Assembly (NCBI GenBank): GCA_948471115.1
Contig: CAOKRJ010000005.1
Coordinates: 1 to 54,969 of the forward strand
Origin: an uncultured Clostridium sp.
GTDB lineage: Bacteria; Bacillota; Clostridia; TANB77; CAG-508
Direction of reading: 5' to 3'
Length of the DNA: 54,969 bases
In this document: positions 43,387 through 54,969 of the stretch, one piece after another
How the letters are laid out: each line of letters opens with the position of its first letter
How positions within the stretch are numbered: the first letter of the stretch is position 1
Translations under genes and position numbers: made by a program
Notes under the pieces: model-generated
What the model saw: the letters and a program-made list of their open reading frames with translations, nothing else
The model's database searches: none
What the model was told of the DNA's origin: nothing

Positions 43387-43500
43387 AATGGAGTAACAAA
43401 ATATTTTAGTAAATTTTGCAAGAAAGGAGGAAACCTATATTTTTTACTAAGTATTAAAAATGTATTTTGTTATGTAAAAAAATAGGAGGTAGAAAGAAAA

Positions 43501-45939
43501 ATGAATTTAAAAAAATTAACAAGAATTATTTTATTAGTAGCAGTATTATTAGTACTAAGCATCGTACCAGTTAATGCCGTAGTATTCAATGCTGCATTTG
43601 ATAGCGATTTCTATGTTAACTGTTATCCAGATCTAAAAGCAGCATTCGGAAATGACGCTAACGCTGCATATGATCATTACTTAACATATGGAATCAAAGA
43701 AGGAAGAATTGCATCACCAGTATTTGATGTAAAAACTTATATAAGAAATTATCCAGACTTACAAGCTGCATTCGGAGACAATTATGAAGCAGCATACAAC
43801 CATTTCTTAGCAAATGGAATGAACGAAGGAAGATTAGCTTCAGACTCATTCAATGTTCAAGTTTACATAGCTAATTATCCAGACTTACAAGCTGCATTCG
43901 GAAATGATGTAGCAGGAGCTTATAACCATTATTTAAATTATGGTATGGCTGAAGGTAGAGTATGTGGCTCTATAGAAGCTGGAGCAGAAGCTCCAGAAGA
44001 CCATGTTCATGCTTATGAAATATCTAGAGTTTTAATAACAGCAACATGTATAAATGACGGAGAAGCAGTATACAAATGTGAATGTGGTGATGAAAAAGTA
44101 GATGTAATTCCAGCATCTGCAGAATATCACGATTATAAAGAAGTTGCATCAGGAGCAGATAACGTTAAAATTTATAAATGTACTATTTGTAATGATACTT
44201 ATTCTGAGGTTATTACAGATGAAGCACATGAGCATGATTATGTTGAAATAGCAGGTTCAAAAGTTGAAGCAAAATGTACAACAGAAGGAAAAATATTCAA
44301 ACAATGTTCTGATCCAGAATGTAATGATATTATAGAAGAAAAAATACCTATGATAGATCACGTATCATCAACTCCAGAAGGAACTGGAAAAATAACAGAA
44401 GGTGTAACATCTTGTGAAAAAGATGGTGCAGAAGAAGTAACTTGTGATGTTTGTCGTCAAAAATTCATAAGACCAATCTCTGCTCACAAATTTGAAAAAG
44501 TATCAGAAACAGCTGCTACTTGTACAGCAGAAGGAGTAGTAACATATAAATGTAAAGCTTGTGGAGAAACTAAAGTAGAAACTACAGAAAAAGTAGAACA
44601 TACTTATACATCTCCAATTGCAATATCAGATGCAACATGTGAAAAAACTGGTTTAAGTATGAGCGTTTGTACAGTTTGTGCAAATGAAAAAAGAGAAGTA
44701 TTACCAGCATTAGGACATAGTAAAGAAGGATTAACACCTGACTTGAGATATGTTGATGCAAAAGGAAAAGTTGTAATGCAAGAAGATGGTGTAACACCAG
44801 TAGCAGTAGAAGAAAACATTGCAAATGGCGAAAAAAATTGTGAATATTCAATAGCTGAAGAATACATTTGTGTAAACCATACAAATGGTGGTCATTGTGA
44901 TAAAAAAGAAGGAAAAATGTTAGTTGTAGTTACAAATGCAGCAGGACATAGAATAGATACAACAGAACCAGTTACAGTAGGAACAATTGAATATGTAGCT
45001 GGAGAACCAGTTAAGGAAAATGGAAAAATTGTTGTAAATGAAGGAGCAAAAGCAGATTGTAAACATGATGAAGTAAAAGTATTCACATGTGCAAACTGTG
45101 AAGAAGAACAAGTTGTAGTAATCACAGAAAAACTAGCACATAAAGTATTAGAAGGTTCAACTGTAGTATATGGAGCAACATGTAAAGCAGATGGATACAA
45201 AACATATACATGTACAACATGTAATGAACAAGTAACAGAAGAAACAGGAGAAAAAGCTTTAGGACATAACTATGTATTTGTACCAGAAACATGTACAGAA
45301 GTTGCAAATATAGCTTGTACAAGATGTACTTTAACAGCTGAAGACAAAGCTTCTGAAGGATATACAGCTTTCAAAGATTCTTTAACAGCTGAACAAAAAG
45401 TTGCATTAGGAAAACCATCTGCTGATGGACACGACCCTATAGGAGAAATTAAAGTAATAGATGGTGTAGAATGTAAATATTGTAAAAAATGTGGAGAATG
45501 GGTTCCAGTATCTTCTCAACCAATAACACATACACATGCAACAGATTTAACAGGAAAAACATTAGTAGAAGTTACTCCTAATACAACATATAAAATTGCA
45601 GATTGTGGAGTAGCAGGTTGTACAGGAATAGAAAATATTTCATGGAATGGTAGTGATTCTACAGTTGAAATAGAGGGTGCAACATATAATGTAGATACTA
45701 CTGATGGAAATAAACTTTCAAAAGGATCAACAGCACCAGCACATGTACACGCAACAGATTTAACAGGAAAAACATTAGTAGAAGTTACTCCTAATACAAC
45801 ATATAAAATTGCAGATTGTGGAGTAGCAGGTTGTACAGGAATAGAAAATATTTCATGGAATGGTAGTGATTCTACAGTTGAAATAGAGGGTGCAACATAT
45901 AATGTAGATACTACTGATGGAAATAAACTTTCAAAATAA
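43501..45939 (+). CDS. Secreted surface protein: YPDL repeats plus CxxC module array (expressed copy)
   Basis: An 812-residue secreted protein. Signal peptide about 1-26. Three repeats of about 36 residues (28-145) share YxxxYPDLxAAFG ... YNHYLxxGxxEGR, known from bacterial surface and wall-associated proteins. From residue 165 there are about ten modules of the form ATCxxxGxxxYxCxxCG with a spaced His; the Cys pairs could bind metal or form disulfides. Two identical 62-residue tails close it (DLTGKTLVEVTPNTTYKIAD). No LPXTG or membrane anchor. From residue 165 on, it is matched by the inverted cassette at 46976-49003. Strong AGGAGGT site. Confidence 0.85.
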   Translation: MNLKKLTRIILLVAVLLVLSIVPVNAVVFNAAFDSDFYVNCYPDLKAAFGNDANAAYDHYLTYGIKEGRIASPVFDVKTYIRNYPDLQAAFGDNYEAAYNHFLANGMNEGRLASDSFNVQVYIANYPDLQAAFGNDVAGAYNHYLNYGMAEGRVCGSIEAGAEAPEDHVHAYEISRVLITATCINDGEAVYKCECGDEKVDVIPASAEYHDYKEVASGADNVKIYKCTICNDTYSEVITDEAHEHDYVEIAGSKVEAKCTTEGKIFKQCSDPECNDIIEEKIPMIDHVSSTPEGTGKITEGVTSCEKDGAEEVTCDVCRQKFIRPISAHKFEKVSETAATCTAEGVVTYKCKACGETKVETTEKVEHTYTSPIAISDATCEKTGLSMSVCTVCANEKREVLPALGHSKEGLTPDLRYVDAKGKVVMQEDGVTPVAVEENIANGEKNCEYSIAEEYICVNHTNGGHCDKKEGKMLVVVTNAAGHRIDTTEPVTVGTIEYVAGEPVKENGKIVVNEGAKADCKHDEVKVFTCANCEEEQVVVITEKLAHKVLEGSTVVYGATCKADGYKTYTCTTCNEQVTEETGEKALGHNYVFVPETCTEVANIACTRCTLTAEDKASEGYTAFKDSLTAEQKVALGKPSADGHDPIGEIKVIDGVECKYCKKCGEWVPVSSQPITHTHATDLTGKTLVEVTPNTTYKIADCGVAGCTGIENISWNGSDSTVEIEGATYNVDTTDGNKLSKGSTAPAHVHATDLTGKTLVEVTPNTTYKIADCGVAGCTGIENISWNGSDSTVEIEGATYNVDTTDGNKLSK
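43993..44011 (+). other. Putative inversion crossover site, copy A
   Basis: CCAGAAGACCATGTTCATG, in frame (PEDHVH) at the junction between the YPDL repeats and the CxxC array. An exact inverted copy is at 48979-48997. Flanking DNA differs, and the match is longer than others I noticed between the two paralogs (up to about 15 bp). Confidence 0.5.
45538..45936 (+). repeat. Tandem 213-bp coding repeat, two copies
   Basis: 45538-45723 and 45751-45936 are identical over 186 bp, separated by a short linker (period 213 bp, 71 codons). It encodes the duplicated C-terminal tail of the surface protein. Sequence identity without drift suggests recent duplication. Confidence 0.88.
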
Positions 45940-45975
45940 TTATAAAATGATTATTTTAATTTCTATGATTATAAT

Positions 45976-46011
45976 AAAAAAACAAAGAGACATTAAGTCT
46001 CTTTGTTTTTT
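45976..46011 (+). terminator. Terminator of the surface protein gene
   Basis: CAAAGAGACATTAAGTCTCTTTG stem-loop (given as arms CAAAGAGAC / GTCTCTTTG) with A and T tracts. The same terminator ends the inverted cassette (46870-46906), so it was duplicated together with the gene. Confidence 0.88.
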
Positions 46012-46083: not shown

Positions 46084-46710
46084 ATTAAAAATTGTAGAGA
46101 AAATGTAGGGGCACCGTTTGCGGGAATGCCCGTGAGACATGACACCACTGTGCCCTATATAATATCATATATAATGATTACTATTTTCTTCCCATTTTAT
46201 AGGATTGTTAATTATATAATTACATATCGCAAGATATTCTCTTTCATTTCTAATAATATGTTCATAATAATTTCGTTGCCAGCATATTTTTGACCTTGAG
46301 GAAACTCGTCCTTTAAAATATCGTATAATATTTCCTATTGTGGTTGCATTTCTTTTTTCTATTTCTAATATTATATGTATATGGTTTGGCATTATTTGAT
46401 AGATATTAATATTGGATTTTTTATATTTTCTCTGTATATTTAATAATTCTTTTTCTACTATTTTTCCTGCCTGATTTAATTCCATTTTATTTCTATTATT
46501 TCTCCTAATAAACATTCTCTATTTTGGATACATATTGTTATAAAATATAATCCTTCTTTTTTATAATCCCATTTCTTTAACCTAATAGAATGTCGTTTAT
46601 ACATTTTTTTATTATATTGCATATTTACCTCTTTCTTTGGGCACAGTGGTGTCATGTCTCACGGGCATTCCCACAAACGGTGCCCCTACATTTTCTCTAC
46701 AATTTTTAAT
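46084..46710. mobile_element. RAYT/Y1-transposase element with 72-bp terminal inverted repeats
   Basis: A 627-bp unit. The repeats 46084-46155 and 46639-46710 are inverted and differ at one base. They enclose a single Y1-type transposase gene. It lies between the convergent surface protein gene and silent cassette. I see no clear target duplication, which agrees with HUH-type transposition. Confidence 0.78.
46165..46622 (-). pseudogene. REP-associated tyrosine transposase (Y1_Tnp/RAYT), frameshifted
   Basis: HUH-type single-strand transposase related to IS200/IS605 TnpA. The N-terminus starts at ATG 46622 behind AAAGAGGT and reads MQYNKKMYKRHSIRLKKW ... FITICIQNRECLLGEII, then meets a stop. 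The rest (from about 46485) is in the other frame: ELNQAGKIVEKELLN, the HUH motif MPNHIHIIL, KGRVSSRS, and the tyrosine helix region EYLAICNYIINNP. One base lost in the A-run at 46485-46488 explains it. A -1 slip on that run is also possible, as in other transposases. Confidence 0.75.
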
Positions 46711-46869
46711 ACTACTTTAATTTTGTAATATTTTCAATTTTTGTCCTTAAATTTTTAATAATTTGAAAATTATAGGCGAATTGCCTAAAGATTAAAATAA
46801 ATTGATTTTAAATATGTATATATAATAACATCATTGCCTGTTTTTGTAAATATCTTTTAACGAACATAT

Positions 46870-46906
46870 AAAAAAACAAAGAGACTTAATGTCTCTTTGT
46901 TTTTTT
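46870..46906 (-). terminator. Terminator of the silent cassette
   Basis: Same CAAAGAGAC / GTCTCTTTG stem and loop as 45976-46011, in inverted orientation, with T tract on the minus strand. Confidence 0.85.
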
Positions 46907-46975
46907 ATATCAAATTAAATTGTTTTTCATCTATGCTCATTAGATATATTTACAAAAGTAAGTTAATACATTATT

Positions 46976-49003
46976 TTAAGCATTATTTGCTACAAAATTA
47001 AATGTAATGTCTATTGGAGCTTTAACATTATCTGCATCACTGAATGTGATAGTAATTCCACTATCTCCACATTTTTCTGCTGATAACCAAACTAAGAATT
47101 GGTTTCCATTAGAAGATGTAGTCCATTGATCCACACATGTTAAATCATCTGCTTCTATTTTGTAATCTCCTGCACTAACTTTTACTTTATCTTTAGCTAT
47201 ACCTAAATCTAATACTAAACAGAAAAATTTTTTTGTTTCGCCATTAGGATTTGTAGTTGCTCCTACTTTTTCAGCTGTTTCTGTAACTGTTACAGTTTTT
47301 CCTGTTGAAGATACTGTAATATTATTAGCTTGTGGTGTAGCAGATTGATGAACTCCTGCTTTTACACTTGTAATACTTAATGGTGTTTTTTCTGAGTCTA
47401 CTTCACCTTTTTCTCCAACTGTGATAACTCCTGTTTTAGCATCAACAGTTACTGCCCATACTTCTTTTAATGTATCTACAGATGTAATAGTGTTAGCTTT
47501 GCTATCAAAAGTAACTTCTTTTTCTCCGCAAGTTCTACATAATGCATAATATTTACTATTTTTATTAACAACTGTTCCAACAAAATCATGTCCTAATGGT
47601 GTATTTTTATCTACAGCTGTTTTTTGATCTCCTGTTAATGTTTTATAGAAATCATCATATCCAGCTTCAGTTCCTTTTAAGTCACATCCTCTTGTACATA
47701 CTATAGCTGCTCCTTTGATACATGTTGCTGCTTCGTATGCATAATTATGACCTAATGCTTTTTCGTTTGTTTTTTCTTCTATTTTTTCATTACATGTTGC
47801 ACATGTGTATGTTTTTCTTCCTTCTTCATTACATGTTGCACCATATACTACTGTTGTATTTGCTTTTGGAGTATGATCTAATTTTTCAGTAAGTACTACA
47901 ACTTCTTCTTGTTTGCATCCTTCATTTGCGCATGTAAATAATTTTACTTCTGCATGTTGACAATCAGATTTTCCACCTTTTGTTACAACATATTTTCCTT
48001 CTGAATTCTTTTGAGGAACTCCTTTTTCATCACATAAAATTGATCCTACGATAACATCTTTAGTTGAGTCTATTCTATGTCCTAATTTTTTAGCTATGAC
48101 TTTTACTTGAATTTTGTTACATGTATCACATTCAAAAGCTTCTATTAAATCATGTTCGCAATCTGCAGCTGTTTGAGTATTGTCTATTTTTGAAGCATCA
48201 AATTTTCCAGATTTATCTGTAAGAATATAATTTCCTTTTTCGTCTACTTCAACCCATCCTTTTGTAGCTATTCCTGTATGATTTAATTTTTTAGAGATTG
48301 TTCTTTTTTCATCTCCGCAAACTTTACAAACACTTAAAGTTAATCCTTCTGTTTGACAATCTGCTGGTATCACTTCTTTAGCATTTGTATAATCATGGTC
48401 TATTTTTTCAATTGTATCTGCTTTTGTTTTTCCACATACTTTACATTTATATGTTGTTACACCTTCTGCTGTACATGTTGCAGGTACTTCTGTTACTTTT
48501 TCATAGCTATGAGCTGAGATTGGTCTTGTGAATTTTTGGTGACATACATCACATGTAACTTCTTCTTCACCGTCTGTTGTACATGATACTGCTCCAGTTA
48601 ATATTTTTCCTTGTCCTTCTTTTGTTGAAGATTTGTGATCTATTTTAGCTATTGTTTCTGTTAATTTTTCTCCACAAACTTCACATTGTTTAAATATTTT
48701 TCCTTCTTCAGTACATTTTGCTTCTATTCTTGAACCTTCGATTTCAAGATAATTATGATCATGAGCTTCTTCTTTAACTATTTCAGTTTTAACATTTCCA
48801 CAAACATTACATTTGTAAATTTTTACATTTTCAACTTCTGATGGTATTTCTACATAATCATGATATTCTTCTGATGCAGGAATTACATCTGTTTTTGTTT
48901 CTCCACATTCACATGTATAAACTCCTTCACCATTATCTTTACATGTTGCTGTAATTAATGTTTTTGTAAGTTTATAGTCATGAACATGGTCTTCTGGGTC
49001 AGT
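46976..49003 (-). pseudogene. Silent, startless paralog of the surface protein C-terminal region
   Basis: Open for 676 codons from a TAA at 49006-49004 to the stop at 46976. No ATG, GTG or TTG occurs in its first 208 codons; the first possible start is a GTG at 48373. It has no signal peptide and no YPDL repeats. It is collinear with the expressed protein from PEDHVH on (CxxC modules such as YTCECG, YKCKVCG, SVCKVCG), then ends in a different beta-rich domain of about 200 residues (from FDSKANTITSVD). The frame is intact despite the lack of a start, which suggests selection as an expression cassette rather than decay. Inversion at the 19-bp site would yield a protein of about 837 residues. 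Confidence 0.82.
48979..48997 (-). other. Putative inversion crossover site, copy B
   Basis: Exact inverted copy of 43993-44011, in the same reading frame of the silent cassette, and only three codons after its upstream stop. Nothing like the YPDL region is found upstream of it. Confidence 0.5.
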
Positions 49004-49112: not shown

Positions 49113-50276
49113 TTAACTTATTTTTTTAATTTCTTCTTTCATGAAATCTAAAGATACAGAAGTATATGTATCACTAGTTATGGAACTACCTTCAATATGA
49201 CCAACCATTGCTTGAATTACCACTAAAGCAATAGACTTTTCTTGACAACGAGTAATAAAGGTATGCCTAAGTGTATGAGTTCTTAAATAATTAGATATAT
49301 TGTTTTTATTTAGAGAATCTAGAAAGTCATTAATTCTTTTAGGTAAAATTAAAGAATTTCTTTGGTAGTCCCAAAATAATAAGTTATGAATATTAGAAAC
49401 TCCTTGCTTTAATATATCTAAAATAATTTTCTTAGTCTCAGATGTCATAGGGAATGTTCTTTTACCTTTATCTATATTTGTCCTTCGATTATATGTCTTT
49501 GTATGTTTACCTAAAACGTATTTATTATTTTTTTTAGTTAAAGTTCTATATACAGTAATAGTATTTTTCTCCAAATCTATGCAATCACTAGAAAGTGCTA
49601 AAATTTCGCCAATCCTCATACCTGTATTTAATTGTAATAAAACGATTTGTTTATATTGTTCATTAACATTTGATATATTTAAACATTCAATTAATTTTTG
49701 CTCTTCATCAATAGTTAATGCTTGAATTCTTTTAGTTTCCTTTTTAGAAATTGGTTTATTCAAAGTCTCATCATTCATAGGATTAAAAGTTATTTTCCTT
49801 CTTGATAGAGCAATATTAAAGGTTTTATATAATAATCTCCAAATTTTATTAATAGAATTATTAGAATACTCTCTAATGTTATCTTTAGCATCTTCAATAT
49901 CATCAACAGTAATAAGATGAATAGGTTTATTTATAAAGTTACTACAAGTTTTTTTAATCTGTTCTTTAGTACCCAAATCCCTAGTATAAGTAGAATCACC
50001 TATCAAATTATCTTTATACTTTTGTTCAATATGTTTCTCTAATATCTTAATAAAAGTATCTTTATCTTTTTCAAAGTAAGTACCATTATTAAGCATAAAC
50101 TTTATATCAGTAACTCTTTTTTTAAACTCCTTTACTTTTTCATTCTTTTTCTGTTGGATTGTCTTTCTTTGACCATTGTAATGAAATTGAAAAAACCATC
50201 TCTTTAAAGTTTCACTATAATATAATGAACCCTCACCATTTCCAACAGATTTTCTTCTACGATTTTTTGCTTCCAT
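49113..50276 (-). CDS. Tyrosine recombinase/integrase
   Basis: A 387-residue site-specific recombinase. The N-terminus (about 10-45, GSLYYSETLKRWFFQFHYNG) looks like the AP2-type arm-binding domain of Tn916-like integrases, then comes the SAM-like core-binding domain (about 70-165) and the catalytic domain. Catalytic residues are all visible: Arg221 (TGMRIGE), His334 and Arg337 (HTLRHTF), His360 (GHIEGSS) and Tyr371 (SDTYTSV). No phage or conjugation genes are nearby, and it sits about 110 nt from the silent cassette on the same strand. It therefore may be a local invertase, or the last remnant of an integrated element. Leader GAAAGGAATGA precedes it. Confidence 0.9.
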   Translation of the reverse strand: MEAKNRRRKSVGNGEGSLYYSETLKRWFFQFHYNGQRKTIQQKKNEKVKEFKKRVTDIKFMLNNGTYFEKDKDTFIKILEKHIEQKYKDNLIGDSTYTRDLGTKEQIKKTCSNFINKPIHLITVDDIEDAKDNIREYSNNSINKIWRLLYKTFNIALSRRKITFNPMNDETLNKPISKKETKRIQALTIDEEQKLIECLNISNVNEQYKQIVLLQLNTGMRIGEILALSSDCIDLEKNTITVYRTLTKKNNKYVLGKHTKTYNRRTNIDKGKRTFPMTSETKKIILDILKQGVSNIHNLLFWDYQRNSLILPKRINDFLDSLNKNNISNYLRTHTLRHTFITRCQEKSIALVVIQAMVGHIEGSSITSDTYTSVSLDFMKEEIKKIS

Positions 50277-51212: not shown

Positions 51213-54200
51213 TTGAAAAATATTAAAAATCTTAGCAAAGTTATTATTATAGCAATATTAGTAGCAATGATAATAACAGTAGCATACCCAATAATAGTAT
51301 TAGGAGCAAATGAAAAAAATCTACCAGTTATAACACCAATGCAAAGAGCAGGAGAGATAAGAGCTGGACAAGAGTTAAAATTTAAAATTACAGATGATAC
51401 GAAAGTATCTTATATTTTTTATGCTTGGAATCGTCGTACAGATGGAGGAAAATCAACATGTATCGAACTAGAAAAAGAAGAACCAGAATACGAATTTAAG
51501 ATTAATGCACCAACACAACCAGGCTTATATGAATTTAGTATAGCAGCAGAAGATTATTATGGGAATACTACATATTGGATGAATATTCCTTATATAATAA
51601 CAAATAATTTAAGTGGAGTACAAGACAATACTGCACCAGAATTTATATTCAACACTCCAAATGAATACCCATATAATGATTCAACAATTCCTCAAGAAAT
51701 GCCAATTACAATTAGAGCAAAAGATCCTTCAGGAATATATTATATAGGATATAAATGGACAAGAGAATTAGAGACGAAAGTTACAGGAGCAACACTTGTA
51801 TATAAAAAAGATACTGTAAAAATCACAGCACCAAAAGAACAAGGAGTTTGGTATTTAATATTGTATGCACGTGATGGTTCAAACAATCTTTCAGAATGTT
51901 ACTATACAAGAGTAACAGTTAAAGATCAAGTAGCACCAACATTAACACTAAATGGTAAAGCAGATGTAGATGTACCATTAAATGGAACATTTACAGATGA
52001 AGGAGCAACATTTAGTGATAATTGTGATGCAACAAAAATAGTATATGCAAACGAAAAAGTAGATACATCAAAAGTAGGAGAACAAATATTAACATATACA
52101 GCTAGAGATAATGCAGGAAATGTATCAAATACAGTTACTAGAAAAGTAACAGTAGTAGCTCCATATAAAACTTATGAATTAACAGCACCTACAAAAACAG
52201 AATACAAAGTAGGAGACAAAATAGACTTAACAGGAGCAAACATCAAAGTAATAGATGAACGTGGAAATATATCAAATGTTACACCAACAGAAGATATGTT
52301 TACAGGATTTTCAACACAAAGTGTTGGTTCAAAAGAAGCAACATTTACATATGAAGGTACAAGTATTAAATATAAATATGAAGTAAAAGCATTAAAATAC
52401 GATATGAGTGGTGTAAAATTTACAGGAACAGAAGCAACATATGATGGTACAGCACACAATATAGCAGTTGATGAAACAACATTACCAGAAGGAGTAACAG
52501 TAACAGGATATATTGGAAATGGACAAACATCAGCTGGAGAACATAAAGTAAAGGTAACATTTGCAGGTGATGAAAATCATGAAAAAATAGAAGACATAGA
52601 AGTAACACTAAAAATAACACCTAAAACAATAACAGTAATAGCAGAAAACAAAACAAGCGAATATGGAGTAGAAAGCTTAGAAAACTTAACAGCAAGACTA
52701 GCAGTAGCAGGAGATGCAGAAAATGGAGAAGACTATACAAACAATGTATTAGTAGGAACAGACACATTAGAAAGTATAGGAGTAATAGCTTCATTATCAA
52801 CAACAGCAACAACAAGTTCAAATGTAGGAGAATATGAAATAACAGGAGAAAGTAAAGTATATGGAAACTATACAGTAACAATAAAACCAGGAAAATACCA
52901 AATAACAGAAAAAGCAATAACTGTAATAGCAGAAGACAAAACAAGTGAATATGGAGCAGAAAACTTAGAAAAACTAACAGCAAGACTAGCAGTAGCAGGG
53001 GACGCAGAAAATGGAGAAGACTACACAAACAATGTATTGGTAGGAACAGACACTTTAGAAAATATAGGAGTAACAGGAGCATTAGCAACAACAGCAACAA
53101 CAAGCTCAAATGTAGGAGAATATGCAATAACAGGAGAAAGTAAAGTATACGGAAACTATACAGTAACAATAAAATCAGGAACATATAAAATAACAGAAAA
53201 AGCAATAACAGTAATAGCAGAAGACAAATCAAGCGAATATGGAGCAGAAAACTTAGAAGAACTAACAGCAAGACTAGCAGTAGCAGGAGACGCACAAAAC
53301 GGAGAAGACTATACAAATAATATATTAGTAGGAGAAGACACATTAGAAAGTATAGGAGTATTAAATACATTAACAACAACTGCAACAACATCAGTAATAG
53401 GAGACTACCCAATCACAGGAACAGATGGAAAATATGGAAACTATACAGTAACAGTAATCGAAGGAACATATAAAATAACTAAAAAAATCCCAACAATAAA
53501 TGAACTAACATATAACTTACCAGCAAGTAAAATGTATAATGGAGAAGAAAGACCAATAAAAGTAAATGCAAAACAAGGAATAGAAGGACTAGGAAAAATA
53601 ACAATAAAATATAATGGAGAAACAACAGCACCAATAAATGTGGGAGAATATAAAGTAACAGTAGACATAGCAGAAGGAGAAAACTATGGAGAAGCAACAA
53701 ACATAGAATTAGGAACATATACAATAACAGCAAGAGAAATAACAGTAATAGCAGAAGACAAAACAAGTAAATATGGAGCAGAAAACTTAGAAACATTAAC
53801 AGCAAGACTAGCAGTAGCAGGAGACGCACAAAACGGAGAAGACTATACAAATAATAAATTAATAGGAACAGACACATTAGAAAGTATAGGAGTAATAGAA
53901 GCATTAACAACAGATGCAACAACAAGCTCTAGTGTAGGAGACTATACAATAACAGGAGAAAGCAAAGTATATGGAAACTATACAGTAACAATAAAACCAG
54001 GAACATATACAATAACAGCAAGAGAAATAACAGTAATAGCAGAAGACAAAACAAGTAAATATGGAGCAGAAAACTTAGAAACATTAACAGCAAGACTAGC
54101 AGTAGCAGGAGACGCACAAAACGGAGAAGACTATACAAATAATAAATTAATAGGAACAGACACATTAGAAAGTATAGGAGTAATAGAAGCATTAACAACA

Positions 54201-54969
54201 GATGCAACAACAAGCTCTAGTGTAGGAGACTATACAATAACAGGAGAAAGCAAAGTATATGGAAACTATACAGTAACAATAAAACCAGGAACATATACAA
54301 TAACAGCAAGAGAAATAACAGTAATAGCAGAAGACAAAACAAGCGAATATGGAGTAGCAAGCCTAGAAGAATTAACAGCAAGACTAGCAGTAGCAGGAGA
54401 CGCACAAAATGGAGAAGATTATACAAATAATACATTAGTAGGAGAAGACACATTAAAAAGTATAGGAGTAATAGATACATTAGAAACAACAGCAACAATA
54501 ACATCAGTAGTAGGAGAATATCCAATAACAGGAGAAAGCAAAGTATATGGAAATTATACAGTAACAGTAATCGAAGGAACATACAAAATAACTAAAAAAG
54601 TACCAACAAAAGCAGAATTAGCATATAACCTACCAGCAAGCAAAATGTATAATGGAGAAGAAAGACCAATAACAGTAAAAGCAAAACTAGGAATAGTAGG
54701 ACTAGGAAAAATAACAATAAAATATAATGGAGAAACAACAGCGCCAATAAATGCAGGAGAATATAAAATAACAGTAGACATAGCAGAAGGAGAAAACTAT
54801 GCAGAAGCAACGAATATAGAATTAGGAACATATACAATAACAGCAAGAGAAATAACAGTAATAGCAGAAGACAAAACAAGTAAATATGGAGCAGAAAACT
54901 TAGAAACATTAACAGCAAGACTAGCAGTAGCAGGAGACGCACAAAACGGAGAAGACTATACAAATAATA
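51213..54969 (+). CDS. Large secreted MBG/Ig-like repeat protein (partial, runs off the window)
   Basis: At least 1252 residues, still open at the window end. TTG start behind AAGGGGG. Signal peptide about 1-33 (VIIIAILVAMIITVAYPIIV). Residues 35-235 are two Ig-like beta domains; 235-316 is a DUF5011-type Ig domain (VTVKDQVAPTLTLNG ... YTARDNAGNVS); about 316-470 hold two more beta domains, the second starting ATYDGTAHNI. From residue 471 on come MBG-type units of 96 residues (ITVIAEDKTSEYG ... KVYGNYTV). Such proteins are stalk-like adhesins or surface proteins. The anchor must lie beyond the window. Confidence 0.85.
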   Translation, partial: MKNIKNLSKVIIIAILVAMIITVAYPIIVLGANEKNLPVITPMQRAGEIRAGQELKFKITDDTKVSYIFYAWNRRTDGGKSTCIELEKEEPEYEFKINAPTQPGLYEFSIAAEDYYGNTTYWMNIPYIITNNLSGVQDNTAPEFIFNTPNEYPYNDSTIPQEMPITIRAKDPSGIYYIGYKWTRELETKVTGATLVYKKDTVKITAPKEQGVWYLILYARDGSNNLSECYYTRVTVKDQVAPTLTLNGKADVDVPLNGTFTDEGATFSDNCDATKIVYANEKVDTSKVGEQILTYTARDNAGNVSNTVTRKVTVVAPYKTYELTAPTKTEYKVGDKIDLTGANIKVIDERGNISNVTPTEDMFTGFSTQSVGSKEATFTYEGTSIKYKYEVKALKYDMSGVKFTGTEATYDGTAHNIAVDETTLPEGVTVTGYIGNGQTSAGEHKVKVTFAGDENHEKIEDIEVTLKITPKTITVIAENKTSEYGVESLENLTARLAVAGDAENGEDYTNNVLVGTDTLESIGVIASLSTTATTSSNVGEYEITGESKVYGNYTVTIKPGKYQITEKAITVIAEDKTSEYGAENLEKLTARLAVAGDAENGEDYTNNVLVGTDTLENIGVTGALATTATTSSNVGEYAITGESKVYGNYTVTIKSGTYKITEKAITVIAEDKSSEYGAENLEELTARLAVAGDAQNGEDYTNNILVGEDTLESIGVLNTLTTTATTSVIGDYPITGTDGKYGNYTVTVIEGTYKITKKIPTINELTYNLPASKMYNGEERPIKVNAKQGIEGLGKITIKYNGETTAPINVGEYKVTVDIAEGENYGEATNIELGTYTITAREITVIAEDKTSKYGAENLETLTARLAVAGDAQNGEDYTNNKLIGTDTLESIGVIEALTTDATTSSSVGDYTITGESKVYGNYTVTIKPGTYTITAREITVIAEDKTSKYGAENLETLTARLAVAGDAQNGEDYTNNKLIGTDTLESIGVIEALTTDATTSSSVGDYTITGESKVYGNYTVTIKPGTYTITAREITVIAEDKTSEYGVASLEELTARLAVAGDAQNGEDYTNNTLVGEDTLKSIGVIDTLETTATITSVVGEYPITGESKVYGNYTVTVIEGTYKITKKVPTKAELAYNLPASKMYNGEERPITVKAKLGIVGLGKITIKYNGETTAPINAGEYKITVDIAEGENYAEATNIELGTYTITAREITVIAEDKTSKYGAENLETLTARLAVAGDAQNGEDYTNN
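52629..54969 (+). repeat. Two-level MBG repeat array (288-bp units in about 1.11-kb blocks)
   Basis: Units begin (codon ATA of ITVIAE) at 52629, 52917, 53205, 53739, 54027, 54315 and 54852. Within a triplet the period is exactly 288 bp; between triplets it is 534 or 537 bp, because an 82- to 83-codon spacer domain (YNLPASKMYNGEERPI) follows every third unit. Blocks therefore repeat every 1110-1113 bp. 53721-54008 and 54009-54296 appear identical. Confidence 0.88.

Follow-up and report, generated by a model that had tools for sequence, protein, structure and literature searches.

An open reading frame that lacks a start codon is very probably the silent C-terminal cassette of a site-specific inversion system, which would exchange the C-terminal part of a secreted and probably surface-exposed protein in an uncultured Clostridium sp. 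The frame occupies positions 46976-49003 on the reverse strand of the window, by which we mean the whole stretch of 54,969 nucleotides analyzed. In the proposed mechanism, a single locus would provide a ribosome-binding site, a signal peptide and a constant helical-repeat domain that ends in an 18-bp crossover site encoding the residues PEDHVH, and the cassettes would bear the same site at their first codons. Crossover between the inverted sites at 43993-44010 and 48980-48997, made by the tyrosine recombinase encoded at 49113-50276, would exchange one entire C-terminal part, along with the terminator behind it, for another and keep the reading frame. Each cassette would then be expressed in some cells or at some times and thereby stay intact. 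Such a shared in-frame site would explain the open frame, its conservation and the contig breaks described below together.

The Silent Frame Lacks Start Signals

From stop to stop, the silent frame comprises 675 codons with zero stops, and the remaining five frames of the same DNA contain 31-85 stops each. Based on a first-order Markov model of this sequence, 57 stops are expected; none of 300 simulated sequences was free of stops, and their longest open run was 116 codons. Third-position G+C is 7.3% in the silent frame, compared with 8.4% in the expressed gene. Neither ATG nor TTG occurs in frame across the 675 codons, and the sole candidate start codons are GTG at codons 211 (window position 48373) and 624, both without a preceding Shine-Dalgarno-like sequence. 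Several Met residues are encoded in the expressed cassette as opposed to no in-frame ATG in the silent one (46979-49003). An in-frame stop is located two codons ahead of the 18-bp site. The silent frame matches the expressed gene (43501-45939, forward strand) in the latter's C-terminal part, with 50% protein identity over 509 aligned residues.

The first-pass annotation had described this long open frame as lacking a start codon and a ribosome site while keeping its Cys modules and a terminator. All of this holds: beyond the missing start signals, an alignment of 14 cassettes has 33 invariant columns, most of them Cys, His or Gly, and the frame is followed by a hairpin that perfectly mirrors the one behind the expressed cassette. 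A promoter scan gave 40 matches compared with 50 expected by chance and cannot be used to judge promoter absence at the silent cassette. Its transcription by read-through from the recombinase gene, located upstream on the same strand, is possible.

The Expressed Gene and the Invertible Segment

The features of the locus are as follows:

43483-43490, forward strand: Shine-Dalgarno sequence TAGGAGGT of the sole expressed copy, ahead of the ATG, assigned by sequence
43501-43992, forward strand: constant N-terminal part with a signal-peptide-like start and three helical repeats (YPDLKAAFGND...HYLxYGxxEGR)
43993-44010, forward strand: putative crossover site of 18 bp at the expressed cassette, with the sequence CCAGAAGACCATGTTCAT and the in-frame translation PEDHVH
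43993-45939, forward strand: C-terminal cassette that occupies the expressed position (648 codons and a stop)
45974-46011, forward strand: terminator-like hairpin that follows the expressed cassette and lies within the invertible segment
46071-46155 and 46639-46723: 85-bp inverted repeats (92%) flanking the REP-associated transposase
46165-46515, reverse strand: REP-associated (Y1, IS200-like) transposase, a passenger between both terminators
46871-46908, reverse strand: terminator-like hairpin behind the silent cassette, the perfect mirror of 45974-46011
46976-48997, reverse strand: silent C-terminal cassette, 673 codons plus stop, assigned by frame and homology
48980-48997, reverse strand: putative crossover site of 18 bp at the silent cassette, again CCAGAAGACCATGTTCAT with the translation PEDHVH, inverted relative to 43993-44010
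49113-50276, reverse strand: tyrosine recombinase of 387 amino acids (Pfam PF00589, E 2e-19), the candidate invertase

The constant coding region is 492 nt long, and AlphaFold2 models it as three alpha-helical modules (pLDDT 81.5). Beyond these constant repeats, the expressed protein consists of the Cys-rich C-terminal part. No family match to the expressed protein or to the silent cassette was obtained in Pfam, NCBIfam or PHROGs. Foldseek searches retrieved zero matches with E ≤ 0.001 for the constant domain and no meaningful structural relatives for the cassette model (pTM 0.39; top TM below 0.11), and plasmid records yielded just distant matches of 26-34% to Cys-rich proteins.

The expressed and the silent cassette face each other, and the expression locus and the recombinase gene flank one 5-kb invertible segment in the window. 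Inverting the segment 43993-48997 in silico results in an in-frame, stop-free protein of 837 codons, which reads ...AGAEAPEDHVHDYKLTK... at the junction between the constant part and the silent cassette. The window's own contig represents a single orientation only. We infer that inversion is active in the strain of the window and that the crossover inverts rather than deletes the segment. The protein would be exposed at the surface and presumably serve antigenic or adhesive variation. Another long secreted protein with repeated domains is encoded at 51213-54969 and continues past the contig end; opposite its repeats, the other strand has long, Leu-rich frames that are open but spurious.

The 18-bp Site Marks the Start of the Cassettes

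The homology between the expressed and the silent cassette begins abruptly at CCAGAAGACCATGTTCAT. We found 21 copies of the site pattern CCAGAAGACCATGNNCAT in six genomes of the genus, G000 (the genome of the window) to G005 (2, 9, 1, 2, 2 and 5 copies), and the reversed control pattern is absent from the same six genomes. A 19-base version of the site does not occur in 379 further genomes of the order, all of them from other genera. The site is present at the 5′ start of every cassette whose 5′ end is contained in sequenced contigs, and the flanks upstream of it are unrelated save for a G at position –3, found in 19 of 19 cases. The dinucleotide before the final CAT of the site is TT in 18 copies and AA in three. 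All three AA sites belong to G005, where they make up three of the five copies (L045 5351 and 9394; L051 4032). Since ATG-NN-CAT is palindromic, this dinucleotide may lie in the region of strand exchange.

One crossover site of G001 (L086 6718-7896) adjoins another surface-protein-like gene, which is located away from the main locus and encodes a membrane anchor, PKTGTVDIIGYVLVIALVSAGGIFIIRKKH, at its end. The 19 matches to the site in viral contigs are single matches with no relative of a cassette or of the constant region nearby, and we regard them as chance.

Alternative Junctions and Contig Ends

Eleven of the 21 sites are located within 100 bp of a contig end, compared with 0.22 expected, and for G001 alone the accumulation of sites near contig ends has a probability of 3e-17. 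Three of the six genomes have contigs that break off at the site. Two contigs of G003, that of the constant region and that of the recombinase gene, both stop on the last base of the site, and the same is true for contigs C16 and C32 of G001, one bearing the constant region and the other a different flank. Because a repeat of 18 bp is by itself too short to interrupt an assembly with k ≥ 21, these breaks point to mixed junctions.

Two genomes contain such junctions directly. In contig C27 of G004, the constant region is joined to one cassette, and at the other end of this contig 75 bp of the constant region plus the site, together 93 bp identical to the constant gene of this contig, are fused to a second cassette. 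The constant region thus precedes two cassettes, and both junctions are present in the sequenced DNA. In G001, the ends of C5 and C44 represent the same cassette start behind two different upstream flanks; from the site onward they agree over 77 bp. The recombinase contig C4 shares an overlap of 77 bp with the start of C44. This shows that the sequenced populations of G001 and G004 contain more than one arrangement, and the same is likely for the G003 population; the genome of the window gives no sign of this kind. The mixed junctions could also stem from coexisting strains with fixed orientations instead of switching within a clone.

The exchange might alternatively be due to RecA recombination or gene conversion between the roughly 77%-identical inverted cassettes, the 18-bp site being a mere conserved edge of homology. 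Inverted arms of 224-315 bp with 76-78% identity are indeed available, and the expressed cassette of G004 is a mosaic of sharp blocks, 89-97% identical to the expressed cassette of the window and 83-87% identical to its silent cassette (L046 1958-3646). This mosaic suggests that homologous recombination or gene conversion also shapes the cassettes. As the source of the junctions themselves we consider it improbable: the changes sit on the 18-bp site and not across the arms, a class B cassette of G001 (see below) is found behind two different, non-homologous upstream flanks, and RecA would have nothing to pair upstream of the silent sites, which share no homology there.

A Candidate Recombinase Adjoins the Silent Cassette

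Site-specific crossover, the reading we prefer, calls attention to the tyrosine recombinase gene, which is located 116 bp from the site of the silent cassette on the same strand. Its product is most similar to Tn1549 Int, Xer-type recombinases and phage integrases: it matches a PHROG integrase with an E value of 2.9e-46 and Tn1549 Int (6emy/6en0) over residues 121-386 with an E value of 1e-7. By inspection of the four full copies in the genus, the integrase motifs R, HxxR, H and Y are present (LNTGMRIGE, HTLRHTF, VGHIEG and SDTYTSV). In the alignment with Tn1549 Int, the tyrosine is shifted by one column from the nucleophile, and the residue assignment rests on this inspection. The gene has nadM and pyrG as neighbors, and it adjoins a site in G000, G001, G003 and G005. 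No orthologue was seen beside the system in G002, where the contig ends inside the cassette. Five further integrase matches exist in the genome of the window, and one of these could act on the site instead. The recombinase encoded at 49113-50276 is most likely the enzyme that catalyzes the crossover.

The integrase relatives of other genera belong to mobile elements, and direct repeats of TTGCATTA or TTGCAGTA occur downstream of them (L018, L022, L025, L026 and L042). Downstream of the recombinase gene in the window, a TGCATTTCTATTGC remnant is found. The mobile-element relatives with their TTGCATTA repeats, together with this remnant, suggest that the recombinase may be a domesticated mobile-element integrase. 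We also considered an analogous cassette system at integrases of other genera that are located near contig ends and rejected it, as tRNAs or TTGCATTA repeats, a typical setting of mobile elements, and no cassette are found downstream of them.

In G005 and G001, the reading frame of the recombinase enters the site and ends with KKLCPRRP or KKLCPRRPCS (L045 9377-9406, L053 3-24 and L047 58-75), so that its last codons and stop are supplied by the site and the adjoining cassette. This close linkage, with the recombinase stop codon within or just past the site in these two genomes and the gene 116 bp upstream on the same strand in the window, could also speak for expression of the silent cassette in place, either by read-through or coupling from the recombinase gene or as a protein of 465 amino acids from the internal GTG at 48373. 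We think this very unlikely. That GTG is not preceded by a Shine-Dalgarno-like sequence, the conserved frame extends 210 codons upstream of it, the Cys-rich domain would be without a secretion signal, and recombinase and cassette use different frames where they overlap.

Cassettes Are Preserved and Diversified within the Genus

Relatives of the cassettes are encoded in four of the five other genomes of the genus and in none of 50 genomes outside it. The expression locus is always found next to rfb genes and a gene for a cation exchanger. The cassettes fall into two classes. Class A contains 25-36 Cys residues, and its structure is modeled as mostly beta (pLDDT 77, pTM 0.39). Class B, found in G005 and G001, contains six to seven Cys residues and resembles class A only at the start, in G001 over the first ∼50-135 residues with 30-50% identity; one of its members has a weak match to PF20585 (pectate-lyase-like adhesive domain) just under the curated cut-off. 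A paralogue of 722 codons in G001 (L088 5891-8056) combines the constant helical repeats with a Cys-rich part of its own and has no crossover site, and it is possible that it represents an unswitched ancestor.

Thirteen non-expressed cassettes from four genomes comprise 7,999 codons without a single stop, whereas simulated neutral change of 5-28% introduces 8-35 stops per cassette. Maximum-likelihood estimates (F3x4) of dN/dS are 0.03-0.10 for pairs that include the silent cassette of the window, where dS is saturated. Among pairs of an expressed and a silent cassette, the one with the least saturation (G5C1_expressed/G5C27d) gives 0.26. We discarded Nei-Gojobori estimates of 0.6-0.99 as misleading, with third positions ∼92% A/T and pS at a plateau of 0.40-0.46. 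Based on the lack of stops, a maximum-likelihood dN/dS below 1 and the invariant Cys, His and Gly residues, the cassettes are maintained as protein. A young, truncated duplicate, that is, a pseudogene whose frame is open through recency, would fit the lack of a start, a ribosome site and a recognizable promoter of its own but is hardly credible, since the frame is old, as judged by saturated synonymous sites and a protein identity of 50% with the paralogue, has no stops in 675 codons where the simulations give 8-35, and shows a startless layout with the same site that is found in 13 cassettes from four genomes.

The first-pass annotation had proposed that the silent cassette is preserved by being moved behind the expressed N-terminus through inversion or gene conversion, and had named dN/dS and stops in relatives as checks. 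The former is below 1 by maximum likelihood and the latter are absent from the 13 non-expressed cassettes. The proposal itself is supported in both parts: inversion by the identical inverted 18-bp sites at in-frame junctions, the adjacent tyrosine recombinase, the in-frame product and the junctions in G004 and G001, and gene conversion by the mosaic cassette of G004.

The distribution of loci differs between the genomes. In G005, the expression locus and the recombinase gene are located on separate contigs, each with further cassettes, and in G001 the sites are spread over six contigs. These observations raise the tentative idea, which we hold to be possible and less than probable, that one domesticated mobile-element recombinase shuffles C-terminal adhesin modules of two unrelated folds between the expression locus and several storage loci across the chromosome, causing large inversions, while conversion makes new cassettes.

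Comparison with Known Systems

In MAGs, long open frames without a start are usually labelled as pseudogenes or assembly errors. The locus described here offers a search recipe for hidden surface variation in uncultured bacteria: short, identical inverted sites where homology begins on the 5′ side, sites at contig ends and an integrase gene nearby. If the system is active, a single cell line would present several different surface modules on a common anchor, with implications for phage resistance, adhesion and host recognition among gut-type Clostridia. A recombinase with a new short site is also a possible additional tool enzyme.

Systems of the vsa and shufflon type are recognized by a single expressed copy with start signals, inverted in-frame sites and a recombinase gene at the locus, all of which we found in the window. 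The vsa locus of Mycoplasma pulmonis contains one expression site, which supplies the promoter, the ribosome site and 714 nt of constant coding region, the silent genes lack the 5′ end, and site-specific inversion sets the 5′ part before another silent 3′ part, with a recombinase gene (HvsR) nearby (PMC2268961). The Clostridia locus shares the single expressed 5′ part (492 nt compared with 714 nt), the silent 3′ parts and the nearby tyrosine recombinase. It differs in its Cys-rich and beta-helix cassettes as opposed to the vsa lipoproteins, in its unrelated 18-bp site, in its walled host, in the spread of sites over several contigs and in a recombinase closer to Tn1549/Tn916-type and phage integrases.

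In the R64 shufflon, Rci exchanges the C-termini of pilV at one-sided sfx sites, which consist of a 12-bp variable left arm, a 7-bp conserved core and a 12-bp conserved right arm (PMC11852207). Here too, alternative C-termini follow a constant N-terminus, the recombinase gene is located beside cassettes in opposite orientations, and the site is conserved on one side only. The shufflon acts on a plasmid-encoded pilus tip, whereas the gene described here encodes a chromosomal surface protein with cassettes of 550-690 codons, and the table of site flanks shows no sfx-like 31-bp layout. Judged by the difference in sites and by the best database matches of the recombinase, the system would not be assigned to either the Rci or the HvsR family.

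The vpma genes of M. agalactiae and the vsp genes of M. bovis are silent surface-protein genes switched by inversion, with the Xer1 recombinase encoded beside them (PMC2268961). A tyrosine recombinase gene adjoining a family of silent surface-protein sequences is common to both arrangements; in vpma and vsp the site belongs to the 5′ untranslated region, so that inversion switches entire genes, whereas here it lies within the coding sequence. The surface protein CwpV of Clostridioides difficile is likewise under the control of site-specific inversion, and its C-terminal repeats vary between strains. That inversion is a promoter-proximal on/off switch of one gene, in contrast to the exchange of C-terminal coding sequence proposed here.

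Tn1549 Int recognizes 11-bp AT-rich inverted repeats around a variable crossover region of 5-7 bp (PMC5871717). The recombinase of the window matches this integrase, but its gene is fixed at the nadM/pyrG locus together with surface-protein cassettes and without a surrounding transposon, and its putative site is dissimilar. Inversion-type mechanisms of this kind are known from a few other bacteria, and this uncultured genus of Clostridia apparently is a new addition to them.
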